Below, in pieces: positions 2,930 to 35,751 of a stretch of DNA of 64,000 bases. The stretch covers positions 1 to 64,000 of the forward strand of contig JASJCQ010000008.1 of NCBI GenBank assembly GCA_030065915.1, in the 5' to 3' direction. A program made the translations under genes and the position numbers. The notes beneath the pieces are model-generated. The model was not told the origin of the DNA. It ran no database searches and saw only the letters and a list, made by a program, of their open reading frames with translations. Numbering within the stretch: position 1 is the stretch's first letter; each line of letters starts with the position of its first letter. This DNA is from Woeseiaceae bacterium (lineage in GTDB: Bacteria > Pseudomonadota > Gammaproteobacteria > Steroidobacterales > Woeseiaceae).

Positions 2930-3672
2930 CGATTCTCCAGTAGCGTTCTCATGGCTGGGTCTTGGATCGTTACAGACTGCGGCTCCGCCGACCTTGGGCG
3001 TTGCGGCGAAAAAGGGTAGCAGGTTCTGCGCATTGACCGCGTAACTTTGCGCGAATCGGAACTGAAATACTTAACGCGCCATGAAATCACGTTCGCCCCC
3101 AGGCAGACAGGAAATATCGGTCGGATCACCGGACCCAGGTGTCGACGTACCCATAACATCAAAAACCGGAATGCAACGCGAGTCCGATATGCTGTTGCTT
3201 TGCAGCAACAAGTGAACTCAAAAATACGTACTTCTACCCACTTACGGGCTGTCTGGCAAAGCAATTTGGGCCGATTGGTGCATCAGACGCGCGGATCGCC
3301 AAGAACCGCTCTCAACAGCACTGTAGAGGACTCTATAAAAAACAGTTGCTTACGGTATTAATCGTAAAAAATGTATCATAAATCGGTACTTAGTCACTGA
3401 CAAAGCTATGGTTTCCGGAATGTTACGGTGTGGCTTGCAACCCCCTACCCGACACCGAAAGCGGCTCGATAGACCGCCTCCGCTGTAACCTGGCTGTCAA
3501 ACTTCCTCGTTACTCTTTCGGGCACTGTCGGCTGCGGCCCACTGTTGTTGTATTTGTCCCACGACTTGGGCACGATACGCAGGGTCGATCAGACGACAGA
3601 CGATCGTTTCCGCCAGGATGCTGACAAACACATAACAAGCACCGGCATTTTTACTGAACCAGAGGAAATCAA
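2930..3672. other. 743-bp intergenic region between cdd and the TonB-dependent receptor gene
   Basis: This is the longest non-coding stretch in the window. It lies between two divergently transcribed genes and should hold both promoters. I see a perfect 7-bp dyad with a 4-base loop at 3193-3210 (TGTTGCT/AGCAACA), an AT-rich segment at about 3330-3400, and a clear ribosome site (AGAGGA, 3661-3666) before the receptor start. No convincing sigma-70 hexamer pair and no recognised riboswitch was found. Short open frames here, such as 3430-3624, show no protein-like features. The distance from the AT-rich segment to the receptor start suggests a 5' leader of over 250 bases, which is an inference. 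Confidence 0.5.
3193..3210. promoter_or_regulatory. Inverted repeat upstream of cdd, possible operator
   Basis: The half-sites TGTTGCT and AGCAACA are perfect complements around a 4-base loop, about 265 bases upstream of the cdd start and 460 bases upstream of the receptor start. It lacks a T-tract, so it is not an intrinsic terminator. It could be an operator or a chance hairpin; no regulator gene lies nearby. Confidence 0.25.
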
Positions 3673-24621: not shown

Positions 24622-25602
24622 CTACCGATCGAAGCTGTCCATCAGGCCTGGTTTGATACGAGCGCCTACTCGCTGAATGACGCTGGTGGCCACGTGAGTG
24701 CCCAGTCTTGCGGCATCTTCGAGACTCCACTCATTGGCCCATCCATACAGGAAGCCGGCTGAATAGGCATCGCCGGCGCCGGTCGTGTCGATGACATGCT
24801 CAACCGGGATTGCCGACTGAATCACCGTATTTCCGCGATGATAAATGACCGAGCCCTCTTCCGAACGCGTGATGACGAACAGGTTGTCACGGTCGCGTAT
24901 CGCCTCAAGCGTATCGTCGATGTTATCGGTGCCCAGCAGCATGTTGATCTCGTCTTCATCAGCGAGAACGATATCGACGTGGTTGGCTACGGCGTCTGCG
25001 AACGACGCCTTATGGCGTTCAACGCAGAAGGAATCCGACAGAGACAACGCGACGGCCGTCTGTGACTCCTTCGCGAGTTCCATAGCCCGCTGTGCCAGTG
25101 CCGGGCCCTCGGCGATGTCCCAGACGTAGCCCTCGATCAGCGTGGCTTTCGGTCGTCCAAACGTGGACTCGGTGATGTCCGCCGTGGCGAGTTCCGTACA
25201 GGCGCCGAGGTAGGTACACATCGTTCGCTGCCCGTCGTCGGTGATCAGCACGTGACTCCTGGCCGTCGGGGCGCCGTCGGGCGCTGGTTGCAGGCGAATG
25301 TCGACGCCGAGCGCTCGCATGTCGTGATTGAAGATCTCACCTAGCTGATCGTCCTTCACTTTGCCGATGTAGGCAGCCGAGCCGCCGAGAAGCGCAAACG
25401 CCGCTACGGAATTGGCTACCGAGCCGCCGGACATCTCCGTTGCCGGCCCCATCCGGTCATAGATAGCGTGAGCCTGGGTTTCGTCAACCAGCGTCATCGA
25501 TCCCGGGACGGTGCCGATATCGGACAGGAAGCTGTGATCGACGTTGGCAAGTACGTCGACGATGGCGTTGCTGATCCCCAGCAACTGGACGTCGTGGCGC
25601 AT
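24622..25602 (-). CDS. PfkB-family kinase, adenosine kinase-like
   Basis: A 326-residue sugar/nucleoside kinase. The N-terminal signature is SGGSVANSVAAFALLGGSAAYIG in two overlapping blocks, and the C-terminal DTTGAGDAYSAGFLYG contains the catalytic Asp and anion hole. The start GISNAIVDVLANVDHSFL and the overall size resemble the adenosine kinase branch found in proteobacteria, which converts adenosine to AMP. The frame runs 17 codons further upstream, but GGAG is well placed for the ATG at 25602. It is divergent from the DUF4956 gene. Another small-molecule substrate is possible. Confidence 0.8.
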   Translation of the reverse strand: MRHDVQLLGISNAIVDVLANVDHSFLSDIGTVPGSMTLVDETQAHAIYDRMGPATEMSGGSVANSVAAFALLGGSAAYIGKVKDDQLGEIFNHDMRALGVDIRLQPAPDGAPTARSHVLITDDGQRTMCTYLGACTELATADITESTFGRPKATLIEGYVWDIAEGPALAQRAMELAKESQTAVALSLSDSFCVERHKASFADAVANHVDIVLADEDEINMLLGTDNIDDTLEAIRDRDNLFVITRSEEGSVIYHRGNTVIQSAIPVEHVIDTTGAGDAYSAGFLYGWANEWSLEDAARLGTHVATSVIQRVGARIKPGLMDSFDR

Positions 25603-25695
25603 GAAGGGCTCCGTGTGAGAAATCGGCGTAAAGCCTATCATTGTGTGCCGCATGATGCGCTATGATTGGCGCGGGGGAAATCGGAAGGGACGTCC

Positions 25696-26343
25696 ATGAG
25701 AAAGTCGACCGGCCTGGCCATACCGATGACGGTAATCATCCTGTATTACGGGTTCTGGCTGGCGCTGGCGTTATTCGTTCAAACGCGCTACCCGACTATC
25801 GCGAACTATTTGCCGCTGGGCGGTATCAGCGACCTGATGTCCGACAGTCTCGATTCACTTGAGCCGGTCTACACCAGTATCGGGCCCTCGTTGCTCGAGC
25901 CCGCCGGTCCGATTCGGCTCGCCATCGCGAGCTTCAGCGCCGTGATCCTGATCATCCCCGTCTCATGGGTGTACTTCATGACGTCACGCAGTGCGAAGAT
26001 GGACCAGGCATTTATCCAGACGATTGTCATACTGCCGGTCGTCGTGACCGGCATCGCGATGATCGTGATGAACAGCATCGCACTCGCCTTCAGCCTGGCG
26101 GGTATCGTCGCAGCCGTACGCTTTCGCTTCTCACTGGCGATTCCGTCGGACGCGATGTACATCTTCGTCTCCATTGGCGTCGGCCTCGGGGCCGGCATCG
26201 GCGCCGTGGGTATCGCAATGGTCATCTCCGCCGCCTTCGTGCTGACGACGTTGGCAATCTGGCGCCTCGAATATGGCAAGTCGGCATCCGGCCCCTTCCT
26301 GCGCATGATGGCGCGTCGTGGTACAGGCGACGACGACTTCTAG
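25696..26343 (+). CDS. DUF4956 membrane protein
   Basis: A 215-residue protein with an N-terminal helix (TVIILYYGFWLALALFV), then a block of helices containing ALAFSLAGIVAAVRFRFS and MYIFVSIGVGLGAGIGAVGI. The arrangement hydrophobic-VRFR-polar-hydrophobic-GVGLG is the DUF4956 signature. DUF4956 genes are known to occur with CotH-kinase and VTC-type polyphosphate polymerase genes; here CotH-like genes follow within 5 kb, but no VTC domain is seen. GGAAGGGA at 25681-25688 supports ATG 25696; an upstream in-frame ATG at 25666 has no ribosome site. Function unknown. Confidence 0.78.
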   Translation: MRKSTGLAIPMTVIILYYGFWLALALFVQTRYPTIANYLPLGGISDLMSDSLDSLEPVYTSIGPSLLEPAGPIRLAIASFSAVILIIPVSWVYFMTSRSAKMDQAFIQTIVILPVVVTGIAMIVMNSIALAFSLAGIVAAVRFRFSLAIPSDAMYIFVSIGVGLGAGIGAVGIAMVISAAFVLTTLAIWRLEYGKSASGPFLRMMARRGTGDDDF

Positions 26344-26350
26344 GCGCGCA

Positions 26351-27319
26351 ATGACAGAGAACAACGCAACGCCGCCGAGGCGAATCATCTATGTGCACGG
26401 TTATTCCCTGAAGCCGTCCGAGTCCGTTCTCGAAGAATTCACTCGTCACGCGATACGTTCCGGTATCCAGCGGGACTATCCCGAAGACATAGCGGCGTTC
26501 GACGAGGCTGACGTTGGTCTGGCGTACTACGGGGACCTGACCCGGCCTCTCTTGAAGGACCGCGGCAGGGAGTACGACGAAGAACTGGATATCGGCGATC
26601 GCAAGAACGCGCTGATTGCTCTGCAATCGGTGTCCCGGCGCAAGAAATTCGGCTTCCGGCAGTACGACAGCCTGCCGGGCAAGTCGGCGAAGAAGGAGTT
26701 TCTCGCCGGGATCATAGCGCCGGTGATGGGACTACTCGGCCAGACCATGCGATTGCTCGGTCGCGTCGCCCCGGTGTTCGCCGCTTATCTTCAGAATGAA
26801 GACGGGCTCGGCACGAGGATACGCGACCGGGTCAGAGGCGAGATTATCGAGGCGATGGAATCCGGTGCGACGCTGATGATCGTGTCGCACGGCATGGGCA
26901 GCATCGTCGCTTACGACGTGCTCTGGCAGCTGTCGCGTGACCCGAGGTTTTCGGACCACGCGACGACGAAGGTTGACTGTTTCGTCTCGATGGGCGCGCC
27001 GTTGTCCGACAATTACATTCGCAAATACCTGTTGGGCGCGAAGTCGGCAGGGATCGAGCGCTATCCCGGCAACATCATCAATTGGCTCAATCTCTCGGCG
27101 GAAGATGACTATCTCTGTCACGATGGCACCGTCGCCGACGATTTCCGTGAGATGATGCGGGAGCATATCGTCAGCCGGATCACGGACTTCCGGATCTACA
27201 ACCAGACGGTACGCTACGGCAAATCAAACCCGCACAGTTCGGTGGGTTACCTGATCCATCCGCGCTTGTCGAAGATCATCCGCGACTGGCTCTGCGAGCG
27301 GCCCGGCCTTATTCAGTGA
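26351..27319 (+). CDS. Alpha/beta-hydrolase-like protein lacking the usual Ser nucleophile
   Basis: A 322-residue cytoplasmic protein. The first strand and turn IIYVHGYSLKP resemble the oxyanion region of lipase-like alpha/beta hydrolases, and LMIVSHGMGSIVAYDVLWQL occupies the nucleophile elbow. The usual G-H-S-x-G there reads Ser179-His180-Gly181-Met182-Gly183, so the nucleophile position is Gly. A later CFVSMGAPLSDNY and a C-terminal HSSVGYLIHP might supply Asp and His. It starts seven bases after the DUF4956 stop, so they are likely co-transcribed. Either the enzyme uses another Ser or it is a non-catalytic fold. The 3' end overlaps the convergent kinase-like gene by seven bases. Confidence 0.72.
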   Translation: MTENNATPPRRIIYVHGYSLKPSESVLEEFTRHAIRSGIQRDYPEDIAAFDEADVGLAYYGDLTRPLLKDRGREYDEELDIGDRKNALIALQSVSRRKKFGFRQYDSLPGKSAKKEFLAGIIAPVMGLLGQTMRLLGRVAPVFAAYLQNEDGLGTRIRDRVRGEIIEAMESGATLMIVSHGMGSIVAYDVLWQLSRDPRFSDHATTKVDCFVSMGAPLSDNYIRKYLLGAKSAGIERYPGNIINWLNLSAEDDYLCHDGTVADDFREMMREHIVSRITDFRIYNQTVRYGKSNPHSSVGYLIHPRLSKIIRDWLCERPGLIQ

Positions 27320-28344
27320 CACCTGCCCTCGAGGCGTTTTTCCACCAATCTCGGGTCGTCGATGATTTTATAGAAATCGTCCATTAGGCGCGTCGTTAGC
27401 TTCCGGCTGTACTTCGACAAGTGGGGGAAGGTCTCTACCAACGCATAGAACTCATCGCGCTTCTCGTCGAATTGCTTCAGCGTTTGCGGCAAGTGTTCAT
27501 TGTTGACGCAGTGACCCCGGTAGTAGCGCTGCGTGATCCTGCGCAATCCGTAACGGGGATTAGGCACCGCGTACTCAGCCGATACGAAACCGGACATGTC
27601 GAAGTCGTACGGGATTGAGTAGTACAACTCCTCGCCTTCGCCAAACAGGATGTGGTTGTGACAGCAGTCATCCTCTTCAGCAGCCGCGAAGGTGGAAAAG
27701 TCAACGTTGGCGATCAGGTAGTGGAACATCGTGGCCAGGTTCACGAAGTCGCTGTGCAACTTGCCCAGCTGAGCCGGGCCTATGAGCTCGACGGGCTTGG
27801 CATCGATTCGTTTGCCTAGCCGGTTCTTGTGTTCGATCAGGAACCCGAATTCGGTTATCGGACGACGTTTTACCTCGCTGTACTCGTAGGTGATCTCAAG
27901 CAGCCGCACCCGGAAACTCCTGTCAGTCAACAGGTTGAACATCCGGTAGACCAGGTACTCCCGCAACAGGCCCTGTTTGTGAACGACCGAATCGCTCTTG
28001 CAGTGCGTGACCAGCTTCAGCTTGTCCTGTTTATCAAAGAGCGTGTCCTTCGTCTCGGACTTCTTGAAGTTCAGGCGAATCGGCGGAAAGTTGCAGGTCG
28101 CCGGTTCTCTCCGCGATTTGCCACGGGCGCGAATCTGGATAGCGAACTGATGCTCCTGTCCGGCTTCGTCGGTATAGGTGAACGTTCCTTGCTCTTCGTC
28201 CTCCAGCGAGCGGGTCTGGAGGATGCGCTTGAATGGCGCCTCGATGGTTACTTTCAGCGTGTCATTGGACTCGAACAGCGGGTCGGTCTTGCCAAGTGCA
28301 GGACCCGCAATGCACAGCACCAGGAGGCACACGATCCGTCTCAT
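27313..28344 (-). CDS. Secreted CotH-like atypical kinase candidate (paralogue 1)
   Basis: A 343-residue protein with a Sec signal peptide (CLLVLCIAGPALG). The N-terminal half has IQIRARGKSRR and FPPIRLNFKK, the CotH-style RG-x-S followed by a P-x-x-L-x-F strand. The middle EYLVYRMFNLLTDRSFRVRL is helical. The catalytic-type segment follows: Asn213-x-Asp215, Cys227-Cys228-His229-Asn230 and IPYDFD (Asp247, Asp249), matching in order the N-x-D, H-N and P-W-D-x-D elements of CotH and related atypical kinases. If active it would phosphorylate proteins or other targets in the periplasm or outside. The paralogue at 30235 shares every one of these elements. Family uncharacterised; kinase activity is an inference from the motif pattern. 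Confidence 0.7.
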   Translation of the reverse strand: MRRIVCLLVLCIAGPALGKTDPLFESNDTLKVTIEAPFKRILQTRSLEDEEQGTFTYTDEAGQEHQFAIQIRARGKSRREPATCNFPPIRLNFKKSETKDTLFDKQDKLKLVTHCKSDSVVHKQGLLREYLVYRMFNLLTDRSFRVRLLEITYEYSEVKRRPITEFGFLIEHKNRLGKRIDAKPVELIGPAQLGKLHSDFVNLATMFHYLIANVDFSTFAAAEEDDCCHNHILFGEGEELYYSIPYDFDMSGFVSAEYAVPNPRYGLRRITQRYYRGHCVNNEHLPQTLKQFDEKRDEFYALVETFPHLSKYSRKLTTRLMDDFYKIIDDPRLVEKRLEGRCH

Positions 28345-28460
28345 CGTTCAGCTTTCCTTAAGCAACCTCATGCGATCTTAACATGCGGGTAATCGTGCAT
28401 TACCTTGACTGTCGCTCTAAAATACAGGGACGCAGGACACATCGTATTTTGTGAAATCCT

Positions 28461-30248
28461 ATGCCGCTTCTTTTGTTAATCATCCTGTTGTTCTCAGTGC
28501 CCGCCGCGGCAAGCTGGCAGTTCGACGGGGTGCAGCGCGTCGTCGCGGTATCCGATGTTCACGGCGCACACCCGGCCTTCGCCACTACATTGAAGGGCGC
28601 GGGTGTCATTGACGACGAGCAATCGTGGAGCGGCGGAACGTCTCACCTGGTCATCGTCGGCGATCTGTTGGATCGCGGACCTGATTCGCGCCGTTCGATG
28701 GACCTGCTGATGAAGCTCGAGCAGGAGGCGGAGGCGGCCGGCGGCAAGGTGCACGTCCTGATTGGCAATCACGAGGCGATGAACCTGATCGGCGATCTTC
28801 GCTATGTCGCGACGCAGGAATACGCGGCCTTCGAGAGAGACGAAACCGAAGACGAACGGAACGCCTGGTTCGAGAAACACAGGGAGTCCCGTGAGACGCC
28901 GGACTACTCGCGCGACGAGTTCGACAAGGCATTTCCGCCAGGCTACTTTGCGCATCGACGCGCATTTGCCGCCGACGGATACTACGGCGCCTGGTTGCTG
29001 TCGAAGCCTGTCATCGTAGTTATCAACCAGACCGCATTCGTACACGGCGGCGTATCGCCGATGATCGGCGAGTATGGATTGGACGGGGTGAACGGCAAGC
29101 TCGTCGGAGAGATGGCGGAGTACCTGCGTCTCCTCGATACGCTATACGCCGACGGCATACTGTTGCCGACCGATAGCTTCTACGACCATCCGGGTTTGCT
29201 GGAAGCCTGGATGCCGCCGCTGGACACTTCGCCGGAGGTGCTGGACCGTGTCGCGAAGACCCGGATTCTCAACGCTTCCCGCCTGCACGATTCCGACGGG
29301 CCCCTCTGGTATCGAGGCAACGCCGCGTGCAGCCGTGTCATCGAGGAGACGCGACTGCTCGAAACGCTCGAGATCATAGGTGCGAATCGCGTCGTCATCG
29401 GTCACACGCCGACCCCGACACGCCGAATCCTGAGCAGGCTCGACGGCGCCATCATCGAAGTCGATACCGGCATGAATCGCCAGTCATACGGCGGCACGGG
29501 CAATGCGTTGCTGCTCGAAGCAGGGCGCTTAAGCGCGATTAACGAAGTCGGTGCCGAGGCTTACGCGGTCGAGGCGCATCCCAGGCAGGTTGGTACCCGG
29601 CCCGGCGGCTTCCTGAGTCTCGACGACACGCTCGACCTGCTTGCGACGGGAGAGGTCGTCGAAGAAATCACCGACGAGCAGGGCCGACAGATTGTCAGGT
29701 TGCAGAAAAGTGATCGCAGTATCGAGGCGGTTTTCTCGCCACGCTCGGCCCGTGGTTTCTACCCGGAACTCGCCGCGTTCGCGCTCGACCAGTTGCTCGA
29801 GCTCGACATGGTGCCGGCGACGGTGCGCCGCAAACTGGGCCGACGGGACGGCACGCTGCAGTTCCTGGTGCCCGGTACGTTGAACGAGGAACAACGATCG
29901 GCGTCCGGCCGTGGCAGCGGCGCGCAGTGCCCGTTGCCCGATCAGTGGGACGCCATGTACGTGTTCGACAGCCTGATTCACAATGAGGCCAGGACCCGCG
30001 ACCGCATGCTCTACGATCCGGAGGGTGGCTGGGACCTGGTGTTGATCGGACACAGTCGCAGCTTTTCCACGAAGAAGGGTGTGCCGGATTATCTGTCCGG
30101 GATCGAACTCAATCTGACTGACAGCTGGCGCAAGGGGCTGTCCGGCCTGGCCGATGACGTGCTCGATGAGGAACTCGAGGATGCCCTCGACAAGCGAAGG
30201 CGCAGGGCGCTGGCGAATCGTCGAGACCTGTTGCTCAGCGGCGACTAG
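28461..30248 (+). CDS. Secreted PPP-type metallophosphatase fused to a degenerate kinase-like domain
   Basis: A 595-residue protein with a hydrophobic signal peptide (LLLIILLFSVPAAA). Residues 25-350 are a complete calcineurin-like phosphatase: Asp32-x-His34 in VSDVHGAHP, Asp68 in GDLLDRG, Asn103-His104-Glu105 in IGNHEAMN, and the later FVHGG and VIGHTPTP histidines. This looks like the Shewanella-like phosphatase branch. Residues about 410-590 resemble a kinase-type fold (AVFSPRSARGFYPELAAF; LDMVPATVRRKLG; FDSLIHNEARTRDRML; LVLIGHSRSF), but the Lys of the first block is Ser426, the catalytic Asp is Ala510 and the metal-binding Asp is Gly530. Its stop region overlaps the second kinase-like gene by 14 bases. 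The target is unknown. Confidence 0.82.
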   Translation: MPLLLLIILLFSVPAAASWQFDGVQRVVAVSDVHGAHPAFATTLKGAGVIDDEQSWSGGTSHLVIVGDLLDRGPDSRRSMDLLMKLEQEAEAAGGKVHVLIGNHEAMNLIGDLRYVATQEYAAFERDETEDERNAWFEKHRESRETPDYSRDEFDKAFPPGYFAHRRAFAADGYYGAWLLSKPVIVVINQTAFVHGGVSPMIGEYGLDGVNGKLVGEMAEYLRLLDTLYADGILLPTDSFYDHPGLLEAWMPPLDTSPEVLDRVAKTRILNASRLHDSDGPLWYRGNAACSRVIEETRLLETLEIIGANRVVIGHTPTPTRRILSRLDGAIIEVDTGMNRQSYGGTGNALLLEAGRLSAINEVGAEAYAVEAHPRQVGTRPGGFLSLDDTLDLLATGEVVEEITDEQGRQIVRLQKSDRSIEAVFSPRSARGFYPELAAFALDQLLELDMVPATVRRKLGRRDGTLQFLVPGTLNEEQRSASGRGSGAQCPLPDQWDAMYVFDSLIHNEARTRDRMLYDPEGGWDLVLIGHSRSFSTKKGVPDYLSGIELNLTDSWRKGLSGLADDVLDEELEDALDKRRRRALANRRDLLLSGD

Positions 30249-31227
30249 CGCCCAGGCAGCGCCGATCGAACTTGTTGACGAGCCGCTCCGGATTCTTCGC
30301 TTGTTTGAAGAAGCCGGCCAGGTAACGTTTCTTCTTTGCTTTGTCTTTCTGCGAGAGCAACGGCAGGGAGTCGATCAGTTGCATGAACTCCGTTTCTTTC
30401 TCGATGACTCTGTCGAGCGCTCGCCGCAGTGTGCCGCGATCGGTGCAGTAGCCGCGGTAGCGGCGCTGAGTGACGCTCGACGTGCGTAGACTCGCATCGG
30501 GCTTCGCGTATTTCGCGTCAACGAAGCCCGCGAGATCGAAGTCATAGGGCACCACCAGCAGCCTGCCCTCGTCCTGCTCAACGACGATCTCATTATGGCA
30601 GCAGACCGTGTCGCCATCGGCGGTCACCAGTGACCAGTCCGTGTTGCCGACCATGAAAGCAAACACGTATACGAGTGCAGCCTGCTCCTGGTCTATCCAG
30701 CTGCGCGACAGCGCGCCGAGCCCAGACAGGCGGGTTCCGATGCGCTCCGCCATGTCCTTTTCGGGCTCGAGGAAGAACGTGAACCGGGAGAAGTCGTTCC
30801 CTTCGGTATCGACATACGTCATTCGGGCTAGCCGGACCTGCAGGCTGTTGTCCGTCAGCAGGTTGAACATCCGGTACACGGCGTACTCCTCCACGACGTC
30901 CGTCTCGGAATGATCGACGTTGCGGCAGTGCGTCACCAGCTTCAGTTTGTCCGCGCCTTCAAAGACACCGCCCGCTCCCTTGAAATTCAGCCTGAGCGGC
31001 GGGAAAGCACAGACGCGCAGACGGCTGTTGCCCCGGGCACGGACCTTGATCTCGTAAGTGTTGCCGGCGTGCTCGAGCGTGAAGGGGTATTGCTGTTTCG
31101 CCTCTTTATTTTCCACGACCGACGTGAGGGGACCCTCGAGACGAAGTTCAAGCGTGTCCGTGCCGCCAAACAGCGGAGTGCCGCTACCGGCCAGCGAAAC
31201 CAGCAATGCTGTCATGACCGTCTTCAC
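30235..31227 (-). CDS. Secreted CotH-like atypical kinase candidate (paralogue 2)
   Basis: A 330-residue paralogue of the protein encoded at 27313-28344, with a Sec signal peptide (MTALLVSLAGSGTPLFGG). Shared blocks are VRARGNSR, FPPLRLNFKG, KLKLVTHCR, EYAVYRMFNLLTDNSLQVRL, the Gly194-Asn195-Thr-Asp197-Trp segment, Cys209-Cys210-His211-Asn212, VPYDFDLAGFVDAKYAKP (Asp229, Asp231) and RRYRGYC. The Gly-Asn-x-Asp form is closer to the textbook atypical-kinase loop than in paralogue 1. The Cys pair before His-Asn is conserved in both and could form a disulfide in the periplasm. It converges on the phosphatase gene, overlapping its last 14 bases. Kinase activity is inferred only. Confidence 0.7.
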   Translation of the reverse strand: MKTVMTALLVSLAGSGTPLFGGTDTLELRLEGPLTSVVENKEAKQQYPFTLEHAGNTYEIKVRARGNSRLRVCAFPPLRLNFKGAGGVFEGADKLKLVTHCRNVDHSETDVVEEYAVYRMFNLLTDNSLQVRLARMTYVDTEGNDFSRFTFFLEPEKDMAERIGTRLSGLGALSRSWIDQEQAALVYVFAFMVGNTDWSLVTADGDTVCCHNEIVVEQDEGRLLVVPYDFDLAGFVDAKYAKPDASLRTSSVTQRRYRGYCTDRGTLRRALDRVIEKETEFMQLIDSLPLLSQKDKAKKKRYLAGFFKQAKNPERLVNKFDRRCLGASRR

Positions 31228-31304
31228 GATGTAACAAGTGTAGCGCGAACTGGAACTCAGGCCACCCGGGCTGGCAAACTGTCAGCTTTTGCGCCGGTAC
31301 CCCA

Positions 31305-32345
31305 TTGAACCTCGACGACCTCCAACCCATCCCGGTCTACACCGATGTCGACAAGGCGCGGTTCGAAAACGACATCCAGCCGCTGCACAGGCCCGCGATC
31401 CTCAAGGGTCTCGCGAAGGACTGGCCGATAGTCGCCAAGGCGAAGGACTCCAACCGGACGTTGGCCGACTATATCGAGAGTTTCGAACCGGGGCGTCCGG
31501 TCAAGGCGTTCTTCGCCACCCCGGACGTCGAAGGTCGGTATTTCTACAACGACGACTTTAGCGGCTTCAATTTCCGGCAGCGCGAGCTGCCGCTGGCCGA
31601 ACTGCTTGGCACGCTGCGTCGCCATGAGGACGACGACCGTCCGCCGTCCGTCTATGCCGGCGCGATTCAGCTCACCGGCCGGCTCGAGGCCCTGCGCGAT
31701 TCCAATCACCACGTGCTGCTCGATGAAGAGATGGAGCAGCTCGTATCGATATGGATCGGCAACCGGGGCAAGACCGCCATCCATTGGGACCTGCCGCAGA
31801 ATATCGCCTGCGTCGTTGCCGGGCAGCGCCGATTTACGCTGTTCCCGCCGGAGCAGCTGCCGAATCTCTACATCGGGCCTCTGGACGTTACGCTCGCCGG
31901 CCAACCAGTGAGCCTGGTCGATCTCAACGATCCGGACCTGGATAAATTTCCGAAGTTCAGCGACGCGCTGGAGGCCGCGCAGACCGCCGTCATGGAGCCG
32001 GGCGACGCGATCTACGTGCCGAGCATGTGGTTCCATCACGTCCAGAACATGAGCGCACTCGGGGTGCTGATCAACTTCTGGTGGCGCGACGCCGCGCCGC
32101 ACATGTTCACGCCGCTGTTCACGATGTTCCATGCGCTACTGTCCATCCGGGACCTGCCATCAGACGAGCGCGAGCACTGGCGACGGATGTTCGATCACTA
32201 CATCTTCCGTGAGGATCATGACCCGATGCCGCACGTGCCCGAGCACGCGCGAGGCGTCTTCCGGGACATGACGCCCGAGCGGGTCGTTGCTCTGCGAAAC
32301 TTCCTCGTGCACAGGCTTGGCGGCGAACTTCGTCGCGACAAATGA
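31305..32345 (+). CDS. JmjC-like cupin-8 protein
   Basis: A 346-residue protein of the cupin_8/JmjC-like type, related to Fe(II)/2-oxoglutarate hydroxylases. The N-terminal LHRPAILKGLAKDWP is a family block. The iron ligands are probably His-x-Asp in TAIHWDLPQNI and the distal His in SMWFHHVQNM, with a Lys/Arg strand between (GQRRFTLFPPEQL). A TTG start at 31305 gives the best N-terminus; a weak ribosome site precedes it. The stop overlaps the next ATG by four bases. Cupin-8 proteins in related bacteria often sit near TonB receptors and halogenases, which is not the case here. Substrate unknown. Confidence 0.85.
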   Translation: MNLDDLQPIPVYTDVDKARFENDIQPLHRPAILKGLAKDWPIVAKAKDSNRTLADYIESFEPGRPVKAFFATPDVEGRYFYNDDFSGFNFRQRELPLAELLGTLRRHEDDDRPPSVYAGAIQLTGRLEALRDSNHHVLLDEEMEQLVSIWIGNRGKTAIHWDLPQNIACVVAGQRRFTLFPPEQLPNLYIGPLDVTLAGQPVSLVDLNDPDLDKFPKFSDALEAAQTAVMEPGDAIYVPSMWFHHVQNMSALGVLINFWWRDAAPHMFTPLFTMFHALLSIRDLPSDEREHWRRMFDHYIFREDHDPMPHVPEHARGVFRDMTPERVVALRNFLVHRLGGELRRDK

Positions 32346-34564
32346 ACGACGACGAGTTCTACCAGGCCGAGGCGCAGCCCTGGCGACGGGAGTTGCCCCG
32401 GTTCTACTACCATACCCACTTCGTCGAGATGCTCGCATTCGTCAAGGCGCACTACACCCACGTGTTCTCCGATCGGGAGCAGGCGTTTTTCGACGATTTC
32501 GACGAGCTGCCGTTCGAGGCGCAGTGTCTGTATGTGCGGCTCGTCAATCGAAAAGGCCGGGTCTTTGCCCGCTCGCGCCTACGCTATCCCGAAATCGGCG
32601 ATTCAGGTCGGTTGCTGGCTGCACTCGATGCCGCCGGCTGGCTGGCGAGGCCCGGTGCCGAACACGTTGATGAGGTCTTGAGTTTCATGACGCGCAGCCA
32701 GCTGCTCGACGCGCTGCGGCCGCGCTTTGTGGGCATGAAAACGTCAATGAAGAAGGCCGAGCTGCTCGAGTTTGCGAAGGCTCACGCCACGGCCTCTGAG
32801 CTCGTCGAGCTGCTGCCCACCGACGGCGTCTTCATCCAGGGCCGGGAAGCGGTCATCCGGTTTCTGCTGTTTCTGTACTTCGGTCGCATCAGTGATGGCC
32901 TGTCACGATTCACGATGCGAGACCTTGGTCTCGTGCGAACCTCGGCGCAGGCTGCCAGCTACGAGCCCCGCTTCCAGGATCGCGCGGAAGCCATGGAGAC
33001 GTACTTCTACGCCTGCATGCTGGCGGACTTCGGTCGTTTCCCCGAGCGCCTGCAGCAGATGGCGCACGGCGTCGACGAATGGCCCGAACCACAGCAGGGG
33101 TATGCGGCCAGTCTGCGAGACAAGCTCGCGTACCGCCTCGGCCGCGCACTGGAGCGGAACAAGGAGACTTACGCTGCGTTGCGGCTGTATCAAAAGGGAG
33201 AGAATACGCGCTGCGCAGAGCGGGTCGTTCGCCTTCTGCTGGCGAGCGGGCAACGGGTGGAGGCGGAGCAATTCCTGGAACGTTGCCTGACCGACCCGGC
33301 CAGCGATGCCGAGGCCTTGCTCGCGGCTGACCTGTACGCAAGGAAGTTCGGCAAGAAAAGAACGTCCTCCTTGACAGACCTGCTGCGGGCTGCCGACGTT
33401 ATCGACATTGACGAGGCGCACAGCGGCTCGCCCGAGAACGCGGCCGTTGCCTACTATGAGCAGCGCGGTATCGCAGCTTATCGAGTCGAGAACACGCTGT
33501 GGCGAACGTTTTTCGGCCTGCTGTTCTGGGACCTGCTGTTCGGCAAGGCGGCGTCAGGCAGGCACTCGCCGTTCGAGAGCCTGCCGGGTTCCGTGCAGAG
33601 CGGCCGCTTCCTGGCCGAGAATCAGGACGCCATCGCAGCACGTCTTGCTCTACTGAATAAGCCCGCGGCGCTCAAGCAGGCGCTCCTAAAGACGAGCGTT
33701 AGTCACTACGGCACAGCCAACGGCGTGTTCCGCTGGCGCCAGCGGACCCTCGACGCGCTCCATGCAATGATCGACAAGGCGCAGGCCAAAGCCATGCGCC
33801 CGATGTTGATGCGTTTCTGCGCAGACTATGACGATGCGCGCAGCGGCTATCCGGACCTGATGCTGATCGATGGAGACACGGTGCGCTTCATTGAAATCAA
33901 GACCGACGGCGACAGCGTCCGGCGGAACCAGCTATTGCGCATCGAACAACTGCGTTCGGCGGGCTTCGACGCCGACGTCGTCCAGGTCCGGTGGATACTG
34001 GACCCCGAACAGGACTACGTCGTCGTAGACGTAGAGACCACGGGCGGGCGAGGGGAGCAGCATCGCGTCACCGAACTCGGCGCCGTCCGCGTCAGGAACG
34101 GGGAGATCGTCGACCGTTACCAGACACTGTTGAATCCGCAGCGCGGGATTCCGGCCAACATTACGCGCCTTACCGGCATCACGCCGGCGATGGTCGCCGA
34201 TGCGCCGTACTTTTCAGACGTTGCGGATGAGTTCGCGACGTTTCTCGAGGGCGGCATCTTCGTCGCGCACAACGTCGACTTCGACTACCGCTTCATTGCA
34301 CAGGAATTCGGCCGGCTCGGGCGAACATTCCGCATGCCCAGGTTGTGCACCTGTGCGTCAATGCGAAAGCTCTATCCGGGCCGCAAATCCTACAGCCTGG
34401 CGGCGCTGACCAGCGATTTCGGTATCAGGCTGGACAGCCACCACAGGGCCCTGTGCGATGCAGAGGCCGCGGCCGAGTTGTTGCTACTGATTAACGAGAA
34501 GCGCCTGGAGCAGCTCAGTCCCGCTGAGAACGCTGTTCCATCTGTCGCTCGAGGCGGTCGATGA
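32342..34564 (+). CDS. FAN1-type VRR-NUC nuclease fused to a DnaQ-like 3'-5' exonuclease
   Basis: A 740-residue protein. Residues 20-85 (FYYHTHFVEMLAF, FEAQCLYVRLVNRKGRVFAR) and 100-180 resemble the FAN1 N-terminal and SAP-like regions; the centre (200-400) is helical and repeat-like (KETYAALRLYQKGENTRCAE), as in the FAN1 TPR part. The VRR-NUC domain (about 440-555) has Pro-Asp in SGYPDLMLID near residue 503 and E-I-K in FIEIKTDG, completing a PD-(D/E)xK site. Residues 560-725 are a DEDDh exonuclease: Asp563-x-Glu565 in VVDVETTG, AHNVDFDYRF and HHRALCDAEAA. FAN1 repairs interstrand crosslinks. The exonuclease fusion would add 3'-end trimming. Its end overlaps the convergent gene by 50 bases. 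Confidence 0.85.
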   Translation: MNDDEFYQAEAQPWRRELPRFYYHTHFVEMLAFVKAHYTHVFSDREQAFFDDFDELPFEAQCLYVRLVNRKGRVFARSRLRYPEIGDSGRLLAALDAAGWLARPGAEHVDEVLSFMTRSQLLDALRPRFVGMKTSMKKAELLEFAKAHATASELVELLPTDGVFIQGREAVIRFLLFLYFGRISDGLSRFTMRDLGLVRTSAQAASYEPRFQDRAEAMETYFYACMLADFGRFPERLQQMAHGVDEWPEPQQGYAASLRDKLAYRLGRALERNKETYAALRLYQKGENTRCAERVVRLLLASGQRVEAEQFLERCLTDPASDAEALLAADLYARKFGKKRTSSLTDLLRAADVIDIDEAHSGSPENAAVAYYEQRGIAAYRVENTLWRTFFGLLFWDLLFGKAASGRHSPFESLPGSVQSGRFLAENQDAIAARLALLNKPAALKQALLKTSVSHYGTANGVFRWRQRTLDALHAMIDKAQAKAMRPMLMRFCADYDDARSGYPDLMLIDGDTVRFIEIKTDGDSVRRNQLLRIEQLRSAGFDADVVQVRWILDPEQDYVVVDVETTGGRGEQHRVTELGAVRVRNGEIVDRYQTLLNPQRGIPANITRLTGITPAMVADAPYFSDVADEFATFLEGGIFVAHNVDFDYRFIAQEFGRLGRTFRMPRLCTCASMRKLYPGRKSYSLAALTSDFGIRLDSHHRALCDAEAAAELLLLINEKRLEQLSPAENAVPSVARGGR

Positions 34565-35114
34565 TATCGCCGAGACCGGGCCGCGTTGCTCGCAGCTCCC
34601 CGATACTCAAGCCTGACAGCTCGTAAGGAAGAACCAGCCAGTCGTGGGTCTTGTGCATGTAGTAGTCGGGCGCACGTAGCGTCCGGTCAGTCTCGCGGAA
34701 CCAGACTGACGCGGTTCGGATGTCACCGGGCAGGTTCCGCCGCGTCTTCCTCGACAGTTGCTGTATCACCGCCGCGACGCTGGACCCGGTGCTGTAGACG
34801 TCGTCGACGATCAGCATCTTGTGCCGGGAGGAGACGTTGTCGATCAGGTACTCGAGGCCGTGCACGCGGATTTCGTCGGCGCGGTCAACCATGTCGGCGT
34901 AACTCGCCGCGCCGCGGTATGACGTCCGCACGGCGATATGATCGGTCGGGATGCCGAATTGCTCGAGACCTTCCTGCACGGCGATACCCACCGCGCTGCC
35001 TCCGCGCCAGAGTCCGACGAGAAAGTCCGGCCGGAAGCCATCTTCGGCGATTGTTGCGGCCAGCCTGAAAGAGTCGGTCAGCAGATCGTCGGCGGCGATG
35101 AAAGTCTTTTCCAT
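34515..35114 (-). CDS. Phosphoribosyltransferase (paralogue A)
   Basis: A 199-residue type I phosphoribosyltransferase. The PRPP-binding motif is MLIVDDVYSTGSSVAAV; the flexible-loop and base-side region FLVGLWRGGSAVGIAVQEGL is also typical. Such enzymes join a purine-type base to PRPP. The base is not evident, and it is not clearly Hpt, Apt or Gpt. A close paralogue lies divergently 58 bases away. The last 50 bases overlap the end of the nuclease gene on the other strand. Confidence 0.85.
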   Translation of the reverse strand: MEKTFIAADDLLTDSFRLAATIAEDGFRPDFLVGLWRGGSAVGIAVQEGLEQFGIPTDHIAVRTSYRGAASYADMVDRADEIRVHGLEYLIDNVSSRHKMLIVDDVYSTGSSVAAVIQQLSRKTRRNLPGDIRTASVWFRETDRTLRAPDYYMHKTHDWLVLPYELSGLSIGELRATRPGLGDIIDRLERQMEQRSQRD

Positions 35115-35172
35115 GGGCTGGTCAGCAAGGCTAGAATGGCGAGCGCCGCATTATAAGCCCAGACGGATACCC

Positions 35173-35751
35173 ATGAACAAAAACATCTTCACCGCGCAGG
35201 ATCTCCTCGAAGACTCGTTTCGCTTGGGGCTGGAAGTGCTGGAGAGCGGGTTCGAGCCAACGATGATCATCGCGATCTGGCGTGGTGGAACGCCCGTTGG
35301 CATGGCTGTCCAGGAGATCCTCGCCTACTGTGGCGTCGATGCCGATCACATCGCTATCCGGACATCGTCCTACAGCGGAATCGACAAGCGGGGCGCCGTT
35401 GCGGTCCACGGGCTGAACTACGTCATCAAGAAAATCTGTCACGACGACCGCGTACTGATCGTTGACGATGTCTTCGATACCGGTAACACCATCGTCGCCG
35501 TTATCGAGGAGATTCGTAAGCGCGCAAGGGACAACGCGCCCGAGGATATTCGCGTCGCGGTCCCGTGGTTCAAGCCCGAACGCAACCAGACCGACATGAC
35601 ACCGGACTTCTTCCTTCGCGAGACCAGTGACTGGCTGGTTTTTCCCCACGAGATCGACGGCGTCACCGTCGAGGAGCTGGAAGCCGCACGACCTGACGTT
35701 GCCGACGTTATGGCCCCGGCAATGCGGAAGGCCGCGCCGGTACGGTCGTGA
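35173..35751 (+). CDS. Phosphoribosyltransferase (paralogue B)
   Basis: A 192-residue protein paralogous to the divergent neighbour: IFTAQDLLEDSFRLGLEVLE aligns with its FIAADDLLTDSFRLAATIAE, MIIAIWRGGTPVGMAVQEIL with its FLVGLWRGG block, and VLIVDDVFDTGNTIVAV is the PRPP motif. Upstream open frame in this strand is a shadow of the divergent gene; ATG 35173 matches paralogue A. The stop overlaps the GTG of the LOG-family gene, so transferase and putative nucleotide phosphoribohydrolase are translationally coupled. Confidence 0.87.
   Translation: MNKNIFTAQDLLEDSFRLGLEVLESGFEPTMIIAIWRGGTPVGMAVQEILAYCGVDADHIAIRTSSYSGIDKRGAVAVHGLNYVIKKICHDDRVLIVDDVFDTGNTIVAVIEEIRKRARDNAPEDIRVAVPWFKPERNQTDMTPDFFLRETSDWLVFPHEIDGVTVEELEAARPDVADVMAPAMRKAAPVRS

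Follow-up and report, generated by a model that had tools for sequence, protein, structure and literature searches.

Two predicted exported CotH-type kinases flank a phosphatase with a pseudokinase-like domain in a Woeseiaceae bacterium

The DNA analyzed here (the window) is a 64,000-nucleotide stretch from the genome of a Woeseiaceae bacterium (3.96 Mb, 39 contigs). A preliminary description had placed two kinase-like genes around a phosphatase gene, and we found the three ORFs at exactly the coordinates it gave. Gene A (27313 to 28344, minus strand) encodes a predicted exported CotH-type kinase of 343 amino acids. From an intergenic gap of 116 bases, read from the sequence (28345 to 28460), it diverges from a plus-strand gene (28461 to 30248) for a predicted exported PPP phosphatase of 595 amino acids with a C-terminal kinase-like domain. 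Gene B (30235 to 31227, minus strand), encoding a second predicted exported CotH-type kinase (330 amino acids), converges on the phosphatase gene, such that the gene ends overlap by 14 bases (30235 to 30248). All three proteins have hydrophobic N termini (maximum mean hydropathy over 10 residues of 3.6 for A, 3.4 for the phosphatase, and 2.4 for B), as do 56 of 70 relatives in a crude hydropathy test, and their export is predicted from this property. The kinase/phosphatase module shows purifying selection, as computed.

An alpha/beta-hydrolase-like gene (26318 to 27319, plus strand; weak LCAT match, E = 0.094) lies between A and a gene for a DUF4956 membrane protein (25666 to 26343, plus strand; PF16316, E = 5.8e-8). 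A Pfam scan also identified a PfkB-family kinase gene near the module (24622 to 25653), which we take to be an adenosine kinase; with two nearby phosphoribosyltransferase genes (34515 to 35751), it represents a possible purine salvage function. The window further encodes a single protein (32342 to 34564) with FAN1-type HTH, VRR-NUC nuclease, and RNase_T exonuclease domains. A scan of positions 25000 to 32500 found no sigma-70-like promoter site.

The proposed paralogy of A and B was borne out by BLASTP (34% identity, E = 3e-66), and every residue that had been named in the two proteins was present. The active-site series of A, computed from residue numbers to lie at 27598 to 27708 (minus strand), reads N213-x-D215, H229-N230, and P-Y-D247-F-D249, with N230 within CCHN and D247 and D249 within PYDFD; that of B, located by residue position (30535 to 30645, minus strand), reads N195-x-D197, N212, and P-Y-D229-F-D231. 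Alignment A2, with 65 rows (2 from the window and 63 from relatives), omits near-duplicates, cut-off genes (L004 to L006 and L009), the two-frame gene of L012/L013, and L078, which has a stop inside its ORF. D215, N230, D247, and D249 were invariant in all 65 rows, and N213 was kept in 63; because of this conservation, the series is far beyond chance, and a chance origin was ruled out. In a profile alignment, N230 and D247 (the H-N and PYDFD segments) aligned with CotH; D215 was not placed on the CotH Asp and is the catalytic Asp by motif order only. Judged from the profile alignment and the 65-row conservation, which support the CotH-type series suggested in the preliminary description, the A family appears to have the catalytic Asp, the Asn, and the metal Asp of CotH-type kinases.

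In structure comparison A showed a kinase-like fold, the absence of which would have refuted the preliminary description, and this fold was of the CotH type. CotH appeared on realignment only, and Foldseek with the A model ranked other kinases first (best E = 0.028); on the predicted model, CotH is by far the best fold match of A. PDB sequence searches with A and with the A2 profile did not find CotH. The Pfam CotH family (PF08757) gave no match to A and a weak one to B (E = 0.056; 13.4 bits against a cut-off of 23.8), and a PF08757 profile search of the window's genome returned no match. Because they fall below the PF08757 cut-off, we regard A and B as divergent CotH relatives outside the Pfam family as drawn. 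They also differ from CotH, the Bacillus spore-coat kinase, in coming from other phyla and in not being spore associated.

A recent tandem duplication giving rise to A and B was ruled out by their 34% identity and by the kinase tree, in which B groups not with A but with further phosphatase-linked genes, although this fork is open and its support only 84. A third paralogue, 60% identical to A, is encoded elsewhere in the same genome (contig C13; L110, 2233 to 3348), directly downstream of a gene for an OmpA-like outer-membrane protein (1415 to 2200), and the 12-kb L110 stretch contained no phosphatase from the tested families. Six of the 369 genomes of the class, the window's own included, had a match to A, the nearest relative found being locus L014 of a Woeseiaceae metagenome-assembled genome (MAG), whose A is 92% identical. 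At L109 (8754 to 9744; G167, contig C6), the kinase gene nearest B (46%) is split over two overlapping frames and is either a broken gene or an assembly error. A tandem pair of kinase-family ORFs at L054 (5995 to 8149) means that side-by-side kinase copies also occur elsewhere.

The phosphatase carries a PPP (Shewanella-like) domain at residues 26 to 360 (28536 to 29540, plus strand). Its model (pLDDT 89.3) has a PPP fold whose closest kinship is to the Shewanella enzyme. The intact metal site described earlier is indeed there, in the form of D32-V-H34-G (DxHG), GD68LLD71R72G (GDxxDRG), GN103H104E (GNHE), and the two histidines H195 and H315. In the 25-row alignment A3, H195 and H315 were invariant, and D32, D68, D71, R72, N103, H104, and E105 were at least 90% conserved, a list from which H34 is absent. 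Unlike the Shewanella-like PPP phosphatases (Shelphs; cold-active phosphatase 1v73), the window enzyme has an added C-terminal kinase-like domain, which is also missing from the phosphatase relatives of other loci (ORFs of 357 to 420 amino acids).

This second domain (about residues 372 to 592; 29574 to 30236, plus strand), overlooked in the preliminary description, is related to atypical kinases. The SCO1664 model matched all 12 copies of the domain (best E = 8.5e-8, only 0.0082 for the window copy), all the listed matches falling below its cut-off of 172.4; HipA_2 matched 7 of the 12 copies, and PI3_PI4_kinase matched 3. Searched against the PDB, the domain profile matched FAM20A (E = 0.0028). 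Foldseek with the phosphatase matched PI4KIIbeta (E = 5.2e-6 over 201 columns, the range covered not being shown), and in the realignment of the full phosphatase the 50 rows were filled by the PPP domain. Taken together, the profile matches point to kinship of the C-domain with FAM20/HipA/PI4K-like kinases. Where FAM20A keeps its loop Asp (N-x-D-R), the window C-domain has lost it, reading N508-E-A-R511 (29982 to 29993, plus strand; alignment read by eye). The loop is N-x-G/A-R in 12 of 12 copies, the Asp being missing from all, and a later metal position, also read by eye, is Asp in 2 of 12. The possibility that the C-domain is a copy of the neighboring kinases was not supported (hhalign probability, 0.2%).

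We then turned to the neighborhoods of kinase relatives, that is, loci among the matches listed, found with a few peptide patterns. The three-gene arrangement was not conserved as such: among the loci examined, the complete A-phosphatase-B set occurred only in the window and L014. What proved widespread was one kinase gene beside one phosphatase gene of varying family, so that the pairing is far from absent in relatives, occurring in 42 of 71 listed loci (PPP in 16, PhoA in 19, and PafA in 7); 29 were without a phosphatase in searches with profiles of PPP, PhoA, PafA, and purple acid phosphatases. The seeds of these profiles were phosphatase genes lying next to the kinase, gene calls were ORFs rather than annotations, and contig ends hide neighbors (at L022, the contig ends beside the kinase). 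Many of the loci are closely related to one another; a single cluster, for example, holds 14 of the 19 with PhoA. When 70 of the 71 loci (all except L078) were grouped into 37 clusters at 60% identity, 20 clusters had a phosphatase (PPP, 12; PafA, 5; PhoA, 3) and 17 had none. In 41 of the 42 paired loci no more than 330 bases separated the phosphatase from the kinase ORF, the exception being L082 (810 bases, with one gene between).

The kinase loci span Pseudomonadota (gamma- and alphaproteobacteria), Gemmatimonadota, and Bacteroidota, and their gene orders vary: Woeseiaceae-type loci have the two genes head to head, those of L026, L030, and Flavobacteria converge, and those of L027 stand in tandem, the phosphatase and kinase genes overlapping by 4 bases. 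Most pairs are convergent or divergent and not one operon. In Flavobacteriales, PhoA, PafA, and PPP genes were each found at the same convergent position, and a kinase tree of 63 selected rows, made by a quick method and having many weak forks, implied at least four changes of phosphatase family among linked rows, or 12 if "none" is counted as a state. Kinase and PPP pairwise distances correlated over 16 linked loci (r = 0.87; 0 of 10,000 permutations), a correlation not specific to pairing, because common descent would give the same. In the stretches L086 to L090, which come from other genomes, five PPP genes of the same type had no kinase-family ORF within the few kilobases covered. Loci without a phosphatase had mixed neighbors, and a Pfam scan covering some of the genes around the kinase at another 17 loci (20 proteins) revealed no shared phosphatase. 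As a small control, we examined 10 canonical CotH neighborhoods (L130 to L139, some stopping at contig ends), and 1 had a tested phosphatase, a PafA-type ORF at L132 (5263 to 6210; G184).

Other genes recur at these loci. A DUF4956 gene, also overlooked at first, is present in 12 of 17 proteobacterial loci (L014 to L030), overlapping the phosphatase gene by 4 bases in L030, and DUF4956 was near canonical CotH in 2 of the 10 neighborhoods (L137 and L139) and in a further case, L126. DUF4956 is known alongside cotH and a polyphosphate polymerase from Gram-positive Pel loci, as PMC7112168 describes. The CotH-type gene and DUF4956 are common to that accessory set and the window, which has a phosphatase in place of the polymerase; polyphosphate polymerase was found in 3 of 28 genomes searched and not in that of the window. 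The alpha/beta-hydrolase-like gene is kept in Woeseiaceae-type loci, beside A in L014, L015, L017, L018, L019, L021, L024, L025, and L107. In 39 of the 50 loci L035 to L084, the kinase gene has a divergent neighbor encoding a membrane protein of about 245 amino acids, of a family that Pfam did not match (e.g., L054, 5262 to 6125); that this Bacteroidota neighbor is a distant DUF4956 was not supported (hhalign, 0.3%).

The adjacency of kinase and phosphatase genes in many distant relatives is suggestive of an extracytoplasmic switch that works by reversible phosphorylation. The simplest account of the conserved kinase site, the exchangeable phosphatase, and the pseudokinase on the partner is a writer and an eraser, and we give about an even chance to the module being such an exported pair, in which CotH-type kinases oppose a PPP phosphatase with a docking or sensing pseudokinase. 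Against this stand the loci and clusters without the tested phosphatase families (29 of 71 and 17 of 37), the solitary PPP genes of L086 to L090, and the scarcity of pairs forming one operon. Substrate specificity also counts against the pairing, as the Shewanella phosphatase is Tyr specific (PMC535813), whereas CotH makes phosphoserine (PMC7821199).

The main rival, which we consider unlikely, is phosphate or nucleotide scavenging, in which the neighboring phosphatases would act on organic compounds to free their phosphate, with the CotH-like protein assisting this program instead of opposing it as a kinase. Enzymes of the PhoA and PafA families typically serve in scavenging and usually have a nutritional role. 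In seven loci (L036, L039, L040, L041, L045, L051, and L084) a purple acid phosphatase gene follows PhoA, giving two phosphatases beside the kinase, and in five (L028, L029, L031, L032, and L033) an Na/Pi cotransporter-PhoU gene lies within a few kilobases; the presence of all these genes near the kinase gene makes the rival a real one. Further in its favor, PF00245, counted in 16 genomes, gave 2 or 3 match pieces in each of nine PhoA-linked genomes, which read as one gene per genome, and the window has the PfkB-family kinase and phosphoribosyltransferase genes near the module. Against scavenging stand the full conservation of the kinase residues, the kept pseudokinase domain on the window phosphatase, and the lack of an E. 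coli-type Pho box at the locus (one match window-wide, at 3483, against 3.5 expected, with a consensus that may not hold in the host).

An accidental or inherited neighborhood, with the kinase-like and phosphatase genes functioning separately, would be compatible with a raw count made up largely of close kin and with the lack of shared operons. PafA adjacency is the weakest part of the pattern, because PF01663 genes are common: counted in 8 genomes, they gave 6 to 16 matches, some being pieces of one gene, in six PafA-linked genomes. We nevertheless think accident very improbable, given that the pairing occurs with three phosphatase families, in three gene orders, and in three phyla, with at least four family changes, and given the single tested phosphatase in the small control of 10 canonical CotH neighborhoods. 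It is also rather improbable, in our judgment, that the CotH-like enzymes phosphorylate an extracytoplasmic lipid, glycan, or small molecule that the phosphatase trims, as PMC7821199 describes CotH, which A matches best in fold, as a protein kinase and the window's genome lacks the polyphosphate polymerase.

Under the writer/eraser reading, A and B, acting beyond the cytoplasm, would phosphorylate an exported substrate, probably a protein, from which the exported PPP phosphatase would strip the phosphate. The FAM20/HipA-like pseudokinase domain may dock the kinases or the substrate, or may sense nucleotide, and would in this way unite kinase and phosphatase or put one of them under nucleotide control. 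We infer catalysis, a protein substrate, a single shared target, the docking role, a periplasmic location, and a source of ATP, although we know of no ATP source outside the cytoplasm; that of CotH is posed as an unanswered question in PMC7821199. A precedent is the activation of FAM20C by FAM20A, as given in PMC5413348. The window resembles that system in having a pseudokinase beside exported kinases and differs from it in the fusion of this pseudokinase to a phosphatase and in the CotH type of the partner kinases.

According to PMC7821199, the phosphorylation that CotH carries out may not be reversible, as no phosphatase for it is known, whereas many A-type loci do have phosphatase neighbors. 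In literature titles and abstract openings, largely from outside the subscription journals, we found no CotH-type kinase paired with a phosphatase partner. We tentatively propose, as a possibility we still hold doubtful, a dedicated reversible extracytoplasmic phosphorylation system in Gram-negative bacteria of three phyla, in which a phosphatase of interchangeable family commonly counters a CotH-type kinase and, in one lineage, a fused FAM20-like pseudokinase would join the kinases and the phosphatase into a single switchable complex. With a phosphatase gene next to a CotH-type kinase gene in different phyla, reversibility can be tested in simple bacteria, and the phosphatase-pseudokinase fusion offers a physical handle on the link between writer and eraser. 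If the C-domain binds A or B, writer and eraser would be one complex, like FAM20A-FAM20C but with the opposing enzyme attached.
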